A stretch of DNA of 30,740 bases from positions 1 through 30,740 of IMG/VR virus record IMGVR_UViG_3300031658_000065. One strand, written 5' to 3'. A program made the position numbers and the translations under genes. The stretch's first letter is position 1. Every line of letters starts with the position of its first letter. This DNA comes from a virus. A model generated the notes under the pieces. The model was not told the DNA's origin. It made no database searches and was given only the letters and a program-made list of their open reading frames with translations. Positions 15,559 to 30,740 of the stretch are shown in pieces.

Positions 15559-17287
15559 TGTTAACCCCCAAATCATTTAACAGCGAATACGCGTTCTCAA
15601 CGTACCATTGCCAATCAATATCAAGTGGCAGCGTGTCGGGCAAATCCATTAACGGTTTACAACCATCACTTTTAGGAACTTTATTACCATTTTTCTTGTA
15701 AGTTATCACTTCACCGTCAACGCTATGATAATAACGTATTGCGCCGCCGATTAAATCACCTTTAAATATAGCGCCGCCGGTAACTTTTCGCACGGTTAAA
15801 AACTTGGTGACATCATCACACGATTTTATGGTTTCTTCTATCGCAATATCTTTTGTTAGATAATCCATCACAGCCTCAACGCAAATATTGTTTGACGGGT
15901 TCTTCATTAATCCGCCGATAGCATAAGCGCCTTTACCTTTTACGCCGTTTTCTTTTACCGCAATGTAGTTGTTTACGTCACGGGCGTAGGTCGCTAAATA
16001 GGGAGTATACTCGTACTCATAACCCGATAGTAGTTCGCACTCAAATATTGCTGTTTCAATGGCAACCGAGTTAGTCCTATCGTAAATTACGTTAATGCCG
16101 TCAGTGTTTGCAGAGACAACTCGACCCCCTGCTCGGGTAACTTTTTCAATTGTCATTAACAGGAACAATTGGCCCGTAATGGTTGTTTGAATTAACAGCT
16201 CAGGGGAATAGAGGAATGAATAGTGTGATCCGAACTTCCCATAACTACCGTTTAACACGATTTTATAGGTTTGCGCTGTTCGTGGGTCAGACTTTTTAAC
16301 ACGCATTCGCGTTTCTTTGATGTCACTATATATAGATAAAAAACCTTTACCTAAATGCTCAGGGTAAAGCCCTTGCTCAATAATGATTGACGGGTACATT
16401 GATGCTATATCAAATTCGCCAAATAGTTGCTCGGCAGTTGGCTCAATCACTTGCTTCTTTTCTTGCGAGTGTAACCCGCCAATTCCGAATTTGTATTTCG
16501 CGCCGTTAAACTCAACTGCCTTGTTTAGTTCTTCGGGCATTTTTGGCTTTCCTGCATCAGACACTTCAAACGTGCAATCAATAACCTTTTTTAACATTTC
16601 GTTAAATTCAGGCGATTCAAATTCTACCCAATCGGGCAATCTATATTTGAAAGGTAAAACCTGCGCTTGTCGTTTACCAACACGAACACCTTTAGCAGTT
16701 AGGTATGAGCGAAATAATGCTTCGGCAATTTGAGCATCAGACTTTGAACGCAAGTCAACGCTATATTCTTTTGATAATTCTGAGCGAAGTTTAATGTCTT
16801 TTTCTATTGCTAGATATAACTCTTTTGTTGTTACTAAATCATTCACGCAGTAATCGCGCAGAAGCTTTCGTTGATTTGGGGATATAGAAGCGCTTGGCTC
16901 AATTGGCAGGTCCTGCAATTTCTCGCACTTTAATCGCCCACCATATATTTTTAAGCTAGTCATAACACCGGGCGCTGGCTCTTTAACATCTATATGATTA
17001 CATTCTGGCTTTTCCATGCCCCACGTTTTAGCGCCACCAATGATTGAGTCAGATAGCCGCTTTAGTTGCTCGTTATCAGCGCCACAAAGTGCGAGTTGTA
17101 ACATCGGCATGTCATAATGATTGCCGTTAAAGGTTATTATCAAACCTTTATCTAATATTTTACGAACACCTTTAACATCTAGCGGGCATCCGTCGAAAAT
17201 CTCAAAATGTTTTATTGCGCCATCTTCGCGTAAAAAGCTAATTAGCCAGTAATCAATATAACATTCAATGTCAGCGTAGTATTTCAT
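15551..17287 (-). CDS. Family B DNA polymerase with 3'-5' exonuclease, 578 aa
   Basis: Exonuclease motifs: ExoI 'YADIECY' (D6, E8), ExoII 'NGNHYD' (about 54-59) and ExoIII 'YCVND' (Y146, D150). Polymerase motifs: A 'FDIASMYPSI' (D293), B 'KIVLNGSYG' (K342, N346, Y349) and C 'SANTDGI' (D396). Motif C has Asn in place of the usual first Asp, and Gly for Ser. Only 49 residues separate motif A Asp from motif B Lys, too few for the TPR2-type insertion of phi29-like protein-primed enzymes, so it probably uses RNA/DNA primers from the PrimPol. Its gene follows an apparent terminator after the ssDNA-binding protein. Confidence 0.9.
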   Translation of the reverse strand: MKYYADIECYIDYWLISFLREDGAIKHFEIFDGCPLDVKGVRKILDKGLIITFNGNHYDMPMLQLALCGADNEQLKRLSDSIIGGAKTWGMEKPECNHIDVKEPAPGVMTSLKIYGGRLKCEKLQDLPIEPSASISPNQRKLLRDYCVNDLVTTKELYLAIEKDIKLRSELSKEYSVDLRSKSDAQIAEALFRSYLTAKGVRVGKRQAQVLPFKYRLPDWVEFESPEFNEMLKKVIDCTFEVSDAGKPKMPEELNKAVEFNGAKYKFGIGGLHSQEKKQVIEPTAEQLFGEFDIASMYPSIIIEQGLYPEHLGKGFLSIYSDIKETRMRVKKSDPRTAQTYKIVLNGSYGKFGSHYSFLYSPELLIQTTITGQLFLLMTIEKVTRAGGRVVSANTDGINVIYDRTNSVAIETAIFECELLSGYEYEYTPYLATYARDVNNYIAVKENGVKGKGAYAIGGLMKNPSNNICVEAVMDYLTKDIAIEETIKSCDDVTKFLTVRKVTGGAIFKGDLIGGAIRYYHSVDGEVITYKKNGNKVPKSDGCKPLMDLPDTLPLDIDWQWYVENAYSLLNDLGVNNA

Positions 17288-17293
17288 AGTAAT

Positions 17294-17317
17294 AAAAAAG
17301 GGGCGTTAACGCCCCTT
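17294..17317 (-). terminator. Leftward terminator/attenuator between ssDNA-binding protein and polymerase
   Basis: The 20-bp palindrome at 17298-17317 (arms AAGGGGCG and CGCCCCTT around TTAA) is followed on the minus strand by six T (17299-17294). It lies after the ssDNA-binding protein gene and 11 bases before the polymerase start, so it should cut most transcripts there. Confidence 0.82.
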
Positions 17318-17344
17318 ATCCTTTTTGTTGTTCGTTATTTGTTT

Positions 17345-17866
17345 TTAGAAATCATCGTTATCACTGGCAAGGTCGCCGTAATCTTCAAAATCACTACTAG
17401 GGTCAGAAGAACCACCAAAGCGTTCACCAGCTTTAATGTATTGAACACCATTGAGGCTAGCGTTAACACGTTGGCCGTAAGTGTTATCTTGCAACCATAA
17501 ATTGATTGAAGCACTTATGATGTCGCCCCCTTGCATGTCGCAGGTTTCAATATCAAGTAATTCTTTACGAACATTGTAGATAGGTATAATCTTATTTGAT
17601 GTTGCTTTGATTGTATAGTGTCCGACGTATTCTTCACGACCTGAAACATCACCATCTTTAAGGCATATTTTATCGTCAGGTATTGCCTTGCTTGACTCAG
17701 ATTTCATTGATTCAATGTCAGCTTTAATTTGAGTGATTAACTCAGCGTTTTTCTCTTTATGAAGCATGATAGTAACTTCACGTTTACCATCAGGGCCAAA
17801 CTTGGTATTGGCTTTGAAAACGTGAGGGAATGAACATACAACTTCTTTAGCTACGAATTTACTCAT
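17345..17866 (-). CDS. ssDNA-binding protein (DUF2815, T7 gp2.5-like), copy 1, 173 aa
   Basis: The N-terminus 'VAKEVVCSFPHVFKANTKFGPDG' and the core 'DIISASINLWLQDNTYGQRVNASLNGVQYIK' match the DUF2815 group of OB-fold single-strand binding proteins. The C-terminus is acidic and ends in an aromatic residue ('DFEDYGDLASDNDDF'), as in gp2.5, where this tail contacts polymerase and helicase. It probably coats ssDNA during replication. AGGAAG precedes the ATG. It has its own promoter (17930-17958) and terminator, so it should be expressed more than its neighbours. Confidence 0.87.
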   Translation of the reverse strand: MSKFVAKEVVCSFPHVFKANTKFGPDGKREVTIMLHKEKNAELITQIKADIESMKSESSKAIPDDKICLKDGDVSGREEYVGHYTIKATSNKIIPIYNVRKELLDIETCDMQGGDIISASINLWLQDNTYGQRVNASLNGVQYIKAGERFGGSSDPSSDFEDYGDLASDNDDF

Positions 17867-17959: not shown

Positions 17960-18469
17960 CTAAAATTCACATTCATTTTCATTTTCTTCAAAATCTTCAA
18001 ACGCCGCTTTCGCATCCATATCATTACGGCTAGGTGCTTCAAGCAATTTAACAGCGTGAACATTTGCACGTACTGCTTTACCGTACGAATTGTCTTGAAA
18101 CCAGTAAGATACTTGGGCGAGTACCGTTGCACCTTTAACAATCATATCCGCCGCTTGAGCGTTACTCATGTTATTGTTATCAGCGTCAATACAAGCGACA
18201 GGTTTGCTTGATGTTAGCTTTAATACATAACCGTCGGAGTTAAACGCGAACGACGTTGTATCACCATCATAGAGATTGGTATTCGCGCCATCATAGTTAA
18301 ATGTTGCAGAGAACCCACAGTCATTGGGTATTGATTCCGATAGCGCTTTTTTAGTCACTTTTAAGGTGGGGCTGTTTTTAGCAATGACAATCTCCGCCCC
18401 ATACTTACCGTACATGTTAGGTTGGGTTAAGTGCGGAAAGTTTATTTTACCTTTAATCATGTGTTTCAT
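17960..18469 (-). CDS. ssDNA-binding protein paralogue (DUF2815-like), copy 2, 169 aa
   Basis: The protein shares with copy 1 the block 'SYWFQDNSYGKAVRANVHAVKLLEA' (copy 1: 'NLWLQDNTYGQRVNASLNGVQYI') and a long acidic, aromatic-ended tail ('AFEDFEENENECEF'). The N-terminus 'MIKGKINFPHLTQPNMYGKYGAEIVI' aligns with the first OB-fold strand region. Two such proteins in one 30-kb phage suggests division of labour, for example replication and recombination annealing. The gene is 11 bases downstream of the nuclease gene. Confidence 0.8.
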   Translation of the reverse strand: MKHMIKGKINFPHLTQPNMYGKYGAEIVIAKNSPTLKVTKKALSESIPNDCGFSATFNYDGANTNLYDGDTTSFAFNSDGYVLKLTSSKPVACIDADNNNMSNAQAADMIVKGATVLAQVSYWFQDNSYGKAVRANVHAVKLLEAPSRNDMDAKAAFEDFEENENECEF

Positions 18470-20070: not shown

Positions 20071-20268
20071 ATGATTGATGACATGGCGTTATTACTGACA
20101 GAGTACAATTTTAACAAATCGGAGTTAGCGAGGCGGCTAGGTGTTTCACCGCAAGCCATTGCTAACAGTTATGATAACGGATTTTTCAGTTATTCGCTGG
20201 CAATACAAATTGAAAAACTAACTAATGGTAAATATAAGGCGGTTAACTTATGCAAAAATTCCCTTTAA
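20071..20268 (+). CDS. Cro-like HTH repressor, 65 aa
   Basis: 'NKSELARRLGVSPQAIANSYDNGFF' is a helix-turn-helix of the Cro/YdaS type, followed by 'YSLAIQIEKLTNGKYKAVNLC', the 'A..IE.lT.G...a..l' segment usual in that family. AAGG at 20059-20062 lies eight bases before ATG 20071. The protein probably binds TTGTAATTTACAA at 20011-20023, controlling the divergent promoters including its own. It overlaps the next gene by 19 bases, so repressor and replication initiator are translated together. The target is inferred from context. Confidence 0.8.
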   Translation: MIDDMALLLTEYNFNKSELARRLGVSPQAIANSYDNGFFSYSLAIQIEKLTNGKYKAVNLCKNSL

Positions 20269-22415
20269 ATCCTGACAAATCCCCAGCGTGTTCAGCTTGG
20301 CAGACTTTTGCCGGTAATGTTAGCGGTGAAGGTATGTTTGGTGTAACACCACCATCAGGTTTTTACGTGATAGATGTTGACTCATACAAAGAGGACGGTA
20401 TAAAAGAAAAAATCGAACAGGTTTTAGGCTGTTCGATTAATTGGGAAGAAAGCCATATCCAAACGACTTTAAACGGTGGTACGCACCACGCGTTTATTAT
20501 ACCTGATAACGTGAAACTTATCCAAGGTTCAAACATGATGGGCGTTCAAGGTTTTGATACAAGAGCATCTGGCAGGGGCTATATTGCTTCGGGTGAAGGT
20601 TATAGCGTAATTGATGCTGATGATGTTTGTTCAAGATTTGATGATTTCTTACCAGAGTTACCAAAAGAGGCGTTGGCTAAATTAACAGTTTCACTCGGTA
20701 AAGATATGTTATCTGTTGATAAAACTTTCAGAGCTGCCGAGTCAGTTGTAACTAATTCTGATGGTTCACCTTTGACCAAATCACAAATGATAGCAACGCT
20801 TGAAAACCTACCAAGTGAGATTGGCACTGACAATGATTCATGGGTTGATGTTTGCGCTGGGTTCAAGCGTCAATTGCTTGCGATGGGTGTTAATGAAGAA
20901 CGTGTAAACGCTAAAGATGGTTGGGGTTTTAAAGTGTTGACGCTATGGTCAAAGAAACGTTTTAGCGGCACTGATGCTGAGTTTTCAAAGGTCAATTCTA
21001 GCAATTATAATCGTTGGAAATCTTTCAAACTAAATGATGATGGTAATGCTGGTAAGATAATAACGTTTAAAAGTGTTATTAGTTTGGCTAAAGATAATGG
21101 TGGGTTACCACAATCGCCTGAGGTTGTTAAAGCTACGGGTGAAAAGTTAAAAGCTGAATGTTCATTTATTAATGATTACGTGATGGATGCAAAAACTGGC
21201 GGTTATATAAGACGTGACAACTTAGTTGAATACCGAAAAGACGCGTATAACAACGAACATTTGTTTGAAACACCGTTAAACAGTAAAGGTAACCCACAAA
21301 AGCCATCTGAAATTTCATTGGGCCACACAGAAGTAGTTAGCGACGTGATGTATGCACCATCGTTTGAGCAAGTGTTTACACTAGTTGATGATGGGCGCAA
21401 ATACTTAAACTCATATATTGAACCAAAACATAAAAGCTGTGGTGAAATTGATAGTGAAGAAGTTAAAGCAGCATTGGTGTTAGTGACAAATCACCTTGAA
21501 CACTTGTTAGATGATAAAAAAGAGCGTGAATTGATTCTTTTTTATCTAGCCCACAACATTCAATTCCCCGGTAAAAAACTTCCGTGGGGGATAATTCTAC
21601 AAGGGGCGCAAGGGGATGGTAAGAGTTTTTTCGCGGAGATGATGCGAATGGTAATGGGTAAATCAAATGTTCGTGTGATGAATGCTGACACGTTGCAGAG
21701 TAATTTTTCAGGTTGGGCTGCTGGGCAATGTATGGTTTTCATTGAGGAATTAAAGCTTGATAACTTTAAGAAGTACGAGATTGTTAACAGAATAAAACCT
21801 TATATCTCTAATCCCACGATTGAGTGGGTTAGAAAATATAAAGAGCCGTTAACTTGTCCTAACACTTCAAACTATTTTTGTTTTACCAATTACAAAGATG
21901 CTATCCCGTTAGATGATAATGACCGTCGTTATGCTGTGTTTTTTAGCAAATGGCAGGGTAGTAGTATTGCAAAATGGAATGAAGAAAACCCAAAATACTA
22001 CCCGGAGTTGTACAACAAAATGCGCAAATCGGGCGAAGCGTTATATTGTGCTTTTGCAAATATAACAATTCCTGATTGGTTTTTACAGCTAAATAGAGCG
22101 CCAAAAACTATCGCGCGTCAGGCAATGATTTCATTAAGTCGTTCACCTGCTGTTAAAGATGTCCAAGAAGCGATTGACGATTTAGCTGATAAAGTACTTC
22201 TTGATGATGGTAAAACACTCAATGCAACATTGCTTGGTGTGCAAATAAAGGTGGAAAGACAGGTCGAAGATGATGACACTTTATATGCAAATTTCCCTGA
22301 CCCAGTGAAAGAAGCAATGAAACTTATTAAAGTTATTGAGTCGATGGGGTGGGTTAAATCGGCAAAAAGGCAAAGAGTTGAAGGTAAACTTTGTACGGTT
22401 TACCATAAAATGTAG
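20250..22415 (+). CDS. Primase-polymerase fused to SF3-like helicase, 721 aa
   Basis: N-terminal PrimPol (AEP) domain: motif I 'VIDVDSYK' (D42, D44), motif II 'LNGGTHHAFI' (H79/H80) and motif III 'QGFDTRASGRGYIASG' (D103, R105). The C-terminal half holds Walker A 'GAQGDGKSFF' (about 453-462), Walker B 'VFIEELK' (about 494-500), 'YFCFTNYKDAIPLDDNDRRYAV' with sensor and arginine finger. This is the plan of phage and plasmid replication initiators that both prime and unwind. Its gene is followed immediately by the iteron array, the likely origin. Start ATG 20250, with AAGGCGG before it inside the Cro-like gene. Confidence 0.9.
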   Translation: MQKFPLNPDKSPACSAWQTFAGNVSGEGMFGVTPPSGFYVIDVDSYKEDGIKEKIEQVLGCSINWEESHIQTTLNGGTHHAFIIPDNVKLIQGSNMMGVQGFDTRASGRGYIASGEGYSVIDADDVCSRFDDFLPELPKEALAKLTVSLGKDMLSVDKTFRAAESVVTNSDGSPLTKSQMIATLENLPSEIGTDNDSWVDVCAGFKRQLLAMGVNEERVNAKDGWGFKVLTLWSKKRFSGTDAEFSKVNSSNYNRWKSFKLNDDGNAGKIITFKSVISLAKDNGGLPQSPEVVKATGEKLKAECSFINDYVMDAKTGGYIRRDNLVEYRKDAYNNEHLFETPLNSKGNPQKPSEISLGHTEVVSDVMYAPSFEQVFTLVDDGRKYLNSYIEPKHKSCGEIDSEEVKAALVLVTNHLEHLLDDKKERELILFYLAHNIQFPGKKLPWGIILQGAQGDGKSFFAEMMRMVMGKSNVRVMNADTLQSNFSGWAAGQCMVFIEELKLDNFKKYEIVNRIKPYISNPTIEWVRKYKEPLTCPNTSNYFCFTNYKDAIPLDDNDRRYAVFFSKWQGSSIAKWNEENPKYYPELYNKMRKSGEALYCAFANITIPDWFLQLNRAPKTIARQAMISLSRSPAVKDVQEAIDDLADKVLLDDGKTLNATLLGVQIKVERQVEDDDTLYANFPDPVKEAMKLIKVIESMGWVKSAKRQRVEGKLCTVYHKM

Positions 22416-22455
22416 TTTCAAAAACTTTATCAAAAACCCTGATACACCCTGATAC

Positions 22456-22490
22456 CCTGATACTTTTATTAAAAGTATCAGGTTTTTTTT
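22456..22490 (+). terminator. Terminator built from inverted iterons
   Basis: CCTGATACTTTT (22456-22467) and AAAAGTATCAGG (22471-22482) form a perfect 12-bp stem with loop ATT, then eight T (22483-22490). It should stop transcription 40-75 bases after the PrimPol-helicase gene. Its left arm is the third iteron. Confidence 0.88.
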
Positions 22491-22750
22491 ACTTACCCTG
22501 ATACAAATCGCCTACCCTGATACTCTACCCTGATACACCTTTTTCTTTTTAAAATCAATAACTTAACCCCTACTGTTCAGGGTGTATCAGGGTTTTTAAT
22601 GAAATATATATAAAGTAGTAGAATAGGGATATAGAGATTTAGGATATAGCGGTTTTATTGTATAGGGTTTTTAAATACTTTTTGCAAAAGGGTGAACACC
22701 CTGATACTTTAGCTATAAAGCTTTATATATCAAAGGTTTAACCCTGATAC

Positions 22751-22778
22751 CATACCCTGATACTAATATCAGGGTATG
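22751..22778. repeat. Perfect 12-bp inverted repeat at the right edge of the iterons
   Basis: CATACCCTGATA (22751-22762) and TATCAGGGTATG (22767-22778) are exact inverses around CTAA. It combines the last direct iteron with an inverted one, and lies 16 bases before the late promoter, so it may be a cruciform, a protein site or an operator. Confidence 0.75.
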
Positions 22779-22793
22779 CAAACTGAAAACACG

Positions 22794-22822
22794 TTTACAT
22801 CATTACCTATTAAGTGTATTAT
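22794..22822 (+). promoter_or_regulatory. Rightward late promoter
   Basis: TTTACA (22794-22799) and TATTAT (22817-22822) are 17 bases apart, each one base from consensus. The start should be near 22829, 24 bases before the first gene of the lysis and packaging block. Nearby iterons could let replication proteins affect it. Confidence 0.7.
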
Positions 22823-22852
22823 ATTTACACACTCACTAAACGAGCAAATAAA

Positions 22853-22981
22853 ATGATTAGAAAGCAGTTAACAATACAACCAGAATTAGCGAAAGCAATT
22901 CAGACACACGCAGATTTATATTTTGACGGAAATTTCAATATGGCAGTTAGAAGTTTATGTCGTGGAGGTTTAGGATTATGA
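22853..22981 (+). CDS. Ribbon-helix-helix (Arc/CopG-like) protein, 42 aa
   Basis: MIRKQLTIQPELAKAIQTH is a basic strand followed by helix one, and 'GNFNMAVRSLCRGGLGL' is the helix two pattern 'g.f..avr.L...Gl' usual in Arc/CopG/MetJ-type regulators. At 42 residues it has room for only this fold and should act as a dimer. It is the first gene after the iterons and late promoter, like CopG regulators beside plasmid origins. Its stop overlaps the next ATG (ATGA). The regulator role is inferred. Confidence 0.72.
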   Translation: MIRKQLTIQPELAKAIQTHADLYFDGNFNMAVRSLCRGGLGL

Positions 22982-26211: not shown

Positions 26212-27549
26212 ATGCCAATTAATACAGTATATAACGGCTATCATGAAGCAGTTCACAAAATAGCAAGAGTACGCGATTTTGCAGAAGGCTCTGATGCTGT
26301 AAAAGATAAAGGCGAAACGTATCTGCCTAAACTCAGTGGTCAATCGGTTGATGAGTATGACAACTATAAAACACGTGGGTATTTAATCCCAGCGGTATCG
26401 CCTACAGCAAGAGCGGTTAAAGGCTCTATTATGCGTAGACCGCCAATGTTTAACCCTAAAGGCGCTGACTATCTACTATCAGATTTTGATGGCTCAGGTG
26501 TTACGGTTAATGAATTTGTCGGTGATATGATAACTGAGTTGTTATACGCTGGCGGCATAGGGTATTTAATCGAGTTTGCAGATAAGCCGTATGCTAAAAG
26601 CTATACGCGCGAAAATATTATTAATTTTAGTTCTGATTATATTATTCTTTCACAAGAATATACTGTGCAAGACCCTAAAGATAAATATATACAGGAAACA
26701 CTTGTTGAGTATTTAGAATTAACATTCGACGAGAACGGTAATTACATTCAGAACCTTTGGCGTGAAGAAGGTAAGAAATACGTTATTGTTGAAACGACTA
26801 CGCCAACAAATAGAGGTGAGGCACTAAAAGAAATACCTTTCGTTTATTCAAGTGTGGGTAAAACCGGTATAAAAGATACGGACCCAATTTTATTGCATCT
26901 TGCTAACGTTAACCATGACCAGTATTTACTTTCTACTGACCACCGTCACGGACTACACTGGACCGCATTACCGACAATGTTCTTATTCGGTGATTTACGC
27001 GACGAGAACGGCAACAAGAAACAAATTAAAGTCGGCGCCGGTACAGCTAATCATATTGATGATGAAGCAGCACGCGTTGAGCTGTTAGAATTTAGCGGTC
27101 AAGGCTTAGGCGCTATCAAGTCGGCTGTAGATGATGATATTTCAACAATGGCTAGTATTGGCGCTAAGATGTTAACGAATGAATCAGGTGGTGTAAAGGC
27201 TGCTGAGACTGCTCGTATTGATGCGTCAAGCGAAACAGCAACACTATCTATTATTGCTAACAGTGTGGATTCAGCAATGAGTAGTATCTTATTGTTTATC
27301 ACTAATTGGTTAAACATTAGTGAAATAGAGTTTCAAGTTAACAGAGATTTCATTGATGTTAAACTCGATCCACAAGCACTAACAGCATTGCTTCAAACGT
27401 GGCAATCGGGCGGCATTAGCTTAAACAGCTTCCTTTATCAGCTTGAAAAAGGTGAATTACTACCGCCTAAAATAACCGCAGAAGATGAAGCTGACAGAAT
27501 AGAGACTACAGGGGTTGATTTTGAAGAAGATACGCAACTTCCAGTGTAA
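26212..27549 (+). CDS. Portal protein (DUF4055-type), 445 aa
   Basis: The protein opens 'YNGYHEAVHKIARVRDFAEGSDAVKDKGETYLPKL', with 'YKTRGYLIPAVSPTARAVKGSIMRRPP' after it, the conserved start of DUF4055 portals. The middle has 'EIPFVYSSVGKTG' and a stem/crown region ending in an acidic tail ('GVDFEEDTQLPV'). It lies one base after the terminase stop. Twelve copies should form the DNA channel of the head. Confidence 0.87.
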   Translation: MPINTVYNGYHEAVHKIARVRDFAEGSDAVKDKGETYLPKLSGQSVDEYDNYKTRGYLIPAVSPTARAVKGSIMRRPPMFNPKGADYLLSDFDGSGVTVNEFVGDMITELLYAGGIGYLIEFADKPYAKSYTRENIINFSSDYIILSQEYTVQDPKDKYIQETLVEYLELTFDENGNYIQNLWREEGKKYVIVETTTPTNRGEALKEIPFVYSSVGKTGIKDTDPILLHLANVNHDQYLLSTDHRHGLHWTALPTMFLFGDLRDENGNKKQIKVGAGTANHIDDEAARVELLEFSGQGLGAIKSAVDDDISTMASIGAKMLTNESGGVKAAETARIDASSETATLSIIANSVDSAMSSILLFITNWLNISEIEFQVNRDFIDVKLDPQALTALLQTWQSGGISLNSFLYQLEKGELLPPKITAEDEADRIETTGVDFEEDTQLPV

Positions 27550-29658: not shown

Positions 29659-30594
29659 ATGAGCACGCAAACATTAGCAGAAGCAAAAAAATTCATTAAC
29701 AACGAAATCGTTGCAGGTGTTGTTGAAGACATCATCACTACTAACCCAATTTGGGGCGCTATGCCTTGGACTGGTTACGCTGGTCAAGCAATTTTAGTTA
29801 ACCGTGAAGACACTTTAGGTGATGCACAGCATTTAGCTATCGGCGGAACTATCACGGCAAAAGCTGCATCAACTGCAATCCAAACTCCATTTACTGCTGT
29901 ATCAACTATTGGTGATGCTGAAATGAATGGCTTAGTACAAGCACAATCATTATCAGGTGGTGTTGATCAGTTAATGGCAGAAGTATCAAGCAAAGCTAAA
30001 TCAGTTGGTCGTTTACTACAAGCAGGTATGGCTTCTGGTACTGGTACTAGCCCACAACTACATTCTTATCATACGCTTACAGATGCTAGCCAGTATACAA
30101 CTGCTTCTGTGGCACAAGGTTTATCTTTCGAATTGTTAGACGAATTACTTGATTTAGTTAAAGCTAAAGATGGCGAAGTTGATTATCTAATCGCTAACGG
30201 TAAGCAATTGCGCAAGTATCGCACACTAGTTCGTGCTTTAGGTGGTGTAAATGAGACTATGGCTTTCGATATGGGTAACGGTCGCACTCGAAACGTTGAT
30301 GTTTATAATGGTGTGCCAATTTTTCAGAACGATTACATCGGTTCAACTGAAACCGCAAACGGTGCAGCCCTTGTTGGCGGCGCATTAAGCAGCGTCTACG
30401 CAGGGTGCTTTGATGATGGTTCGATGAAAATCGGTCAATCAATGATTCATCCTGACGGCATCCCAGTAGGTATTCAAGTTGACCAAGTTGGCCTTGCTGA
30501 ATCTAAAGATGAAAGTATCACTCGCGTTAAGTCTTACAGCAACTTTGTAAACTTTAACCGTCGCGGTCTTGCACGTCTTACTTCATTAACTTAA
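29659..30594 (+). CDS. Major capsid protein, 311 aa
   Basis: The protein begins MSTQTLAEAKKFINNEIVAG, with 'DIITTNPIWGAMPWTGYAGQAILVNRE', a beta-hairpin and extended arm region, and later 'VDVYNGVPIFQNDYIG' and 'GIPVGIQVDQVGL', typical of HK97-fold capsid proteins of about 300 residues. It follows the scaffold gene and has its own promoter. No protease gene is seen nearby, so the scaffold is probably released whole or cut by another protein. The gene ends 21 codons before the hairpin terminator in the terminal overlap. Confidence 0.9.
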   Translation: MSTQTLAEAKKFINNEIVAGVVEDIITTNPIWGAMPWTGYAGQAILVNREDTLGDAQHLAIGGTITAKAASTAIQTPFTAVSTIGDAEMNGLVQAQSLSGGVDQLMAEVSSKAKSVGRLLQAGMASGTGTSPQLHSYHTLTDASQYTTASVAQGLSFELLDELLDLVKAKDGEVDYLIANGKQLRKYRTLVRALGGVNETMAFDMGNGRTRNVDVYNGVPIFQNDYIGSTETANGAALVGGALSSVYAGCFDDGSMKIGQSMIHPDGIPVGIQVDQVGLAESKDESITRVKSYSNFVNFNRRGLARLTSLT

Positions 30595-30740
30595 TAATTA
30601 TTAAGTAAGTATTTAAAAGCCATTCTAACGAGTGGCTTTTATAATATTTATTAGGGGTTAATCATGAAAGTAGAATTAAAAAGCAAAGCAGCTAATTGTC
30701 GTCAATACGGTTTAGAATTTGATTGTGAAGGCGTTGCTGA
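30560..30740. repeat. Right copy of 181-bp terminal overlap
   Basis: The right-hand partner of bases 1-181 (two mismatches). It contains the capsid gene end, the 18-bp palindrome (30589-30606) and the terminator (30615-30640). It closes the map onto the left end. Confidence 0.93.
30664..30740 (+). CDS. Small protein after capsid gene, 5' part (cut by window end)
   Basis: ATG at 30664 starts the same 52-residue protein found complete at 105-263. The first 25 codons are present here. On the circular genome this is one gene. Confidence 0.88.
   Translation, partial: MKVELKSKAANCRQYGLEFDCEGVA

Follow-up and report, generated by a model that had tools for sequence, protein, structure and literature searches.

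The replication origins of most tailed phages have yet to be located. In the phage described here a noncoding gap filled with short repeats directly follows a gene encoding a PrimPol-SF3 helicase, which raises the question of whether the repeats form an origin used by that protein and, if so, to which known type of origin they come closest. The first-pass annotation of this DNA had read them as an iteron plasmid origin that would give the phage a copy-number mechanism like that of a plasmid.

The window, that is, the whole stretch of DNA that was analysed, is the IMG/VR record IMGVR_UViG_3300031658_000065 (30,740 nt). It belongs to a tailed phage with connector, tape measure, terminase, portal, scaffold, capsid and tail genes, for which no nucleotide-level relatives were found in the phage records searched. 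Since the record ends in a direct repeat of 179 bp (3-181 and 30562-30740, 99.4% identical), it closes to about 30.56 kb and is probably nearly complete. The minus strand encodes an exonuclease, two Gp2.5-like proteins, PolA, an endonuclease and a helicase. The two genes for Gp2.5-like ssDNA-binding proteins are adjacent to each other (17345-17866 and 17960-18469) and are both assigned to phrog_112. The GC skew, a measure suggested by the first-pass annotation, was computed and changes sign at about 20 kb; gene direction also turns there, and the skew is therefore not usable for placing the origin.

The repeat array behind the initiator gene

Between the stop codon of the PrimPol-SF3 gene (22415) and an ORF of 42 aa (22853) there is a gap of 437 bp (22416-22852). 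Ten copies in this gap match ACCCTGATAC exactly, nine on the plus and one on the minus strand, and two further minus-strand copies carry one mismatch. The array described by the first-pass annotation, with its two clusters and AT-rich core, is thus real, and its unit is a 10-mer instead of the 9-mer counted there, as the leading A is present in all ten exact copies. This 10-mer is the commonest of the phage; all ten exact copies in the record lie inside the gap and none elsewhere, against 0.045 expected in the whole record from base composition. When one mismatch was allowed, the 9-mer gave 16 matches compared with 3.1 in shuffled sequences, and none of 100 shuffles reached 16. The array begins 21 bp past the stop codon, directly 3' of the initiator gene, and its 10-mers occur in both orientations at spacings of 8 to 114 bp (Table 1). 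The facing iterons at 22751-22778 form a perfect inverted repeat of 12 bp.

Table 1. Positions in the window of the repeat array, the initiator gene and the small gene before it
Feature	Position	Strand	Remarks
Small HTH gene (Cro/CI/YdaS-like), candidate regulator	20071..20268	+	65 aa; overlaps the initiator start
Initiator: N-terminal AEP PrimPol, SF3 helicase (DUF5906/VapE-like), C-terminal winged-helix-like domain	20250..22415	+	
Proposed iteron-reading domain at the initiator C-terminus	22125..22415	+	AlphaFold model; iteron covariation
Left iteron cluster	22436..22536	+	Six exact ACCCTGATAC: 22436, 22446, 22454, 22495, 22514, 22527
Intrinsic-terminator-like hairpin	22456..22490	+	Two facing iterons (22456-22482) and T8, behind the initiator gene; z -6.2
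One-mismatch inverted iteron AACCTGATAC	22475..22484	-	
Lone exact inverted iteron ACCCTGATAC	22584..22593	-	
AT-rich core, proposed melting region	22594..22697		74% AT vs 61.5% in the genome
Right iteron cluster	22698..22763	+	Exact ACCCTGATAC at 22698, 22741, 22754; extends to 22775 with the minus copy
One-mismatch inverted iteron	22766..22775	-	Pairs with 22754-22763

No DnaA box was found in the gap, a search of Rfam gave no match, and no second (crr-like) array was found elsewhere in the genome. No credible gene fits the gap; an ORF with a GTG start (22814-22981) overlaps its last 39 bp and is merely a longer reading of the 42-aa ORF. A close relative with the same iteron was not found. 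Paired copies of ACCCTGATAC do occur in 13 IMG/VR contigs (L016-L028), which were rejected as further cases of the same iteron system, no such initiator being present in the stretch examined. Several of these contigs have a spacing of 31 bp in common.

The initiator and its small neighbours

In Pfam the initiator matches DUF5906 (2.8e-19) and VapE (6.7e-6), and also Prim-Pol at a value below the cut-off (0.004), while NCBIfam offered no name for it. The AEP residues DxD, H and D (D42, D44, H79 and D103) are invariant in an alignment of 18 members and so are the Walker and arginine residues. Among solved proteins the helicase region (CTR) of the NrS-1 PrimPol comes closest, both in a profile search of the PDB (2.2e-22) and by fold with Foldseek (2.2e-17), and the poxvirus D5/E5 primase-helicases come next. 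As prophages in bacterial genomes, relatives of the initiator were found at only three distant loci.

The last 96 residues were modelled by AlphaFold with a pLDDT of 84 and show the element order H-E-H-H-E-E. Foldseek returned no significant match for this domain, and for this reason its designation as a proven winged helix was rejected, although many of the weak top matches are winged helices. The tail domain of NrS-1 has been described as a new fold and not as a winged helix (PMC7102993).

The 65-aa HTH gene before the initiator matches Phage_CI_repr (2.8e-6, above the Pfam cut-off) and YdaS_toxin (7.4e-7, just below it). A small gene is likewise placed directly before the initiator in LP.1, 1.017.O, JS26, BcepNazgul, chi, FoX4 and SS2019XI, several of them with HTH matches. 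The 42-aa ORF on the other side of the array, which had been proposed as a CopG-like partner, has no Pfam match, and a search of 50,697 phage records with its product gave no more than two matches, both weak; as a conserved partner it was therefore rejected. The HTH gene is the better candidate for a regulator.

Arrays in other phages and in plasmids

An array behind the initiator is a family-wide feature. Relatives were picked by their initiator protein alone and clustered at 80% identity, giving 61 non-redundant ones. In the 600 bp after each initiator gene the most repeated octamer on both strands was determined, and its count was set against 200 dinucleotide shuffles as well as against further windows from that locus. 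The octamer exceeded all 200 shuffles in 35 of the 61 relatives, 32 of which also beat every control window of their own locus; among random control windows 3 of 183 passed. The remaining 26 clusters showed no array by this test in the first 600 bp, a number that has to be read with the fact that exact-octamer counting misses degenerate arrays, while some of the 26 may have none. The array of chi (five copies of GGTTACAA) sits past a small HTH gene and thus outside the 600 bp, and the arrays of a few other relatives possibly lie further on in the same way. Repeats were seen 400-1300 bp after the initiator in L055 and L082, which had failed the test; they include CCTGGTTA thirteen times and tandem units of 35 bp.

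The suggestion that related phages should hold the array in the same place was therefore borne out, with sequences that are specific to the lineage and alike in relatives whose initiators have similar C-termini. The iterons are CCTGCACA in L029, CATGCCGAA and CATACCGAAT in L061 and L091, GCGGATA in LP.1, GTATCCGAA in 1.017.O and CCTACGCAAT in JS26, and AGGTCCGAA is common to BcepNazgul, L057, L062 and L064. In Mantel tests, iteron similarity was correlated with that of the C-terminal domain (r 0.24, reached in 0 of 2000 permutations), of the N-terminal PrimPol (r 0.16, 1 of 2000) and of the SF3 core (r 0.12, 39 of 2000). Iteron sequence thus appears to track the C-terminal domain best, in a correlation that is modest and that the N-terminal domain shares. 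In 29 of 34 relatives the AT content of the largest stretch between iterons was higher than that of the initiator gene. The motif GGTTACA recurs as the iteron core of very distant initiators, those of E. coli and Proteus plasmids, chi and NrS-1 (L123, L124, L109, L118, L107).

Initiator and repeats are also found together in small plasmids. Plasmid pW47-1 (8,955 bp) has ten copies of GGTTACAA behind the gene, pRHB04-C06_4 (8,873 bp) has seven of GTTACACA, with six at a short distance past the gene, and a 6,641-bp plasmid of K. oxytoca, a weak case, has four of TAATCCCA behind it. None of the three has another annotated replication gene, and such small plasmids (L123, L124, L122) probably represent an untyped plasmid replicon.

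The PrimPol gene of NrS-1 (AB746912, 37,159 bp) ends at 17051, and all eleven copies of the 9-mer GTTACACTT in that genome follow immediately, at 17062-17377. The priming motif of the NrS-1 polymerase was reported as the 8-nt TTTGGTTA (PMC8718748), and two copies of it near the centre of the genome were proposed as a possible origin (PMC7102993). We found one exact copy, at 17198-17205, which lies within the array and overlaps an iteron (TTTGGTTACACTT). The annotated hypothetical ORF NRS1_29 (L118, 17055-17456) covers the array and is probably spurious. In the Bordetella phage BIP-1 (L117, about 26600-26710) the published stem-loop is built from four copies of GCCTCGTTT, two of them direct and two inverted.

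A predicted origin and its place among known systems

Taken together, the sequence evidence makes it very probable that the gap is the replication origin of the phage and that the copies of ACCCTGATAC are the loading sites of the PrimPol-SF3 protein encoded upstream. The best reading appears to be an initiator-bound origin organised like those of PICIs and SaPIs and placed in a tailed phage. The iteron-type origin proposed beside the initiator is in this respect supported, as relatives have an array at this position. For SaPI Rep and Cch2 (PMC7581432) and for PICIs (PMC6092414), the array directly following the rep gene is origin and binding site at once, and from these systems and NrS-1 we infer by analogy initiator loading, core melting, priming and origin activity in the present phage. 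The C-terminal domain of the initiator would bind the duplex iterons, a helicase hexamer would assemble on each cluster, and the AT-rich core between the clusters would be melted. The N-terminal PrimPol could then lay the first primers on the opened array, after which the phage PolA, the Gp2.5-like SSB and the second helicase would carry on. The level of initiator is probably set by the small HTH gene that overlaps its start.

It is possible, if rather unlikely, that in this same origin the 10-mers are mainly start signals on the single-stranded template for the PrimPol, as was reported of TTTGGTTA and GTG with the NrS-1 polymerase. The overlap of the NrS-1 priming motif with an iteron (PMC8718748) would fit such a role, as would the similarity of the N-terminal domain, which also follows that of the iterons. 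However, of the eleven NrS-1 iterons just one has an exact TTTGGTTA match, the C-terminal domain correlates with the iterons more strongly, and Cch2 and SaPI Rep bind their iterons through the C-terminal domain (PMC7581432). A 10-mer repeated in both orientations and in two clusters also fits hexamer loading better. The two readings overlap, since the same repeats could serve in both steps.

It is improbable that the array serves packaging, as a pac or cos site in which the repeats are bound by terminase. The array does lie near the terminase genes in the present phage, LP.1 and NrS-1, and near the cos end in BcepNazgul and other chi-type records. However, in chi a distance of over 10 kb separates the terminase genes from the left cos end (PMC4342425) while the array stays on the primase side, and iteron sequence tracks the initiator. 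An origin is favoured over a packaging site because small plasmids, in which no terminase is annotated, carry both initiator and array. Slightly more improbable still is an operator or terminator array that controls transcription through the HTH protein or some other repressor. The terminator-like hairpin formed by two facing iterons and the HTH gene upstream would suit this function, but the copies are confined to one gap and none is seen where other genes of the phage meet, an operator would need fewer than the ten to twelve copies grouped around the AT-rich core, and the array of NrS-1 contains a priming motif.

Classical Rep_3-type iterons are about 20 bp long, direct and evenly spaced. 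Unlike them, the present repeats are 10-mers in both orientations with uneven spacing, and they accompany a DUF5906 PrimPol-SF3 initiator in a gap free of DnaA boxes; of the iteron plasmid origin suggested at first, the iteron-type origin is supported and the plasmid layout is not, the PICI/SaPI type being the one that matches. A plasmid-type origin under copy-number control with the 42-aa ORF as partner is the least credible reading, even though this ORF adjoins the array and relatives of the initiator occur on plasmids, since the repeats misfit, the ORF is little conserved and, in agreement with the first-pass annotation as regards partition, no partition or integration gene was found among the ORFs scanned. 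Nothing points to plasmid-like copy control, which does not follow from a layout that is common to chi, a phage that has been called lytic (PMC4342425).

Satellites and cassettes are already known to have iteron origins behind their SF3 initiators. For tailed phages with PrimPol-SF3 proteins we found no account of such origins in the literature searched, which left out most subscription journals. We consider it likely that one type of replicon, an AEP PrimPol-SF3 initiator with its own fast-diverging array directly behind it, serves not only tailed phages (the present one, LP.1, chi, BcepNazgul and NrS-1) but also small enterobacterial plasmids and, probably, satellites like the PICIs. If this is true, the origin is located in chi-like phages and in NrS-1, and the layout of the PICI origin is not unique. 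The rule that a private short repeat behind a PrimPol-SF3 gene marks the predicted origin could be applied to dozens of phage lineages, including the laboratory phage chi and the biochemically studied NrS-1, and would likewise predict the origins of untyped small plasmids. In its matched initiators and iterons the family also offers a natural set from which the code of recognition could be read.

Compared with known systems, the alpha protein of P4 is similar as a primase-helicase that acts at origin repeats (ori/crr), to which it binds through a winged helix at its C-terminus (summarised in PMC4234260); in P4 the primase is of the Toprim type and crr is separate, whereas the present phage has a PrimPol of the AEP type and only one array, which follows the gene of that protein. 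The Casjensviridae (chi, BcepNazgul, JS26) share the homologous initiator, the small upstream gene and the array downstream, but have genomes of 57-64 kb compared with about 30.6 kb here, and membership is not claimed.

In pRN1 (orf56/orf904) and BIP-1 a small DNA-binding gene precedes the PrimPol-SF3 gene, much as the HTH gene does here, and an essential region lies downstream (PMC4234260). The authors of that work proposed a stem-loop origin and stated that iterons are absent. Our results bear on their view that stem-loops take the place of iterons in PrimPol-SF3-winged-helix phages, as the arms of the BIP-1 stem-loop are copies of GCCTCGTTT and the structure can therefore also be regarded as a short iteron origin. 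NrS-1 (PDB 6K9C/6K9E/6LRB) resembles the present phage in its homologous SF3 region, in the array right behind the PrimPol gene and in the small gene directly before it. It differs in its iteron, and the NrS-1 papers cited name the 8-nt priming motif and not the array.

The closest likeness in organisation is to the Rep-ori of PICIs and SaPIs and to SCCmec Cch2, where the origin is also directly 3' of the SF3 initiator gene; in PICI/SaPI origins two iteron sets flank an AT-rich region, as they do in the present gap. Unlike these satellites and cassettes, the array described here is carried by a tailed phage with its own terminase, portal, capsid and tail genes, and, unlike in PICIs and SaPIs, PrimPol and helicase are fused in one initiator. 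The organisation of the PICI origin was stated to be common to no other known bacterial replicon (PMC6092414); the present survey argues otherwise.
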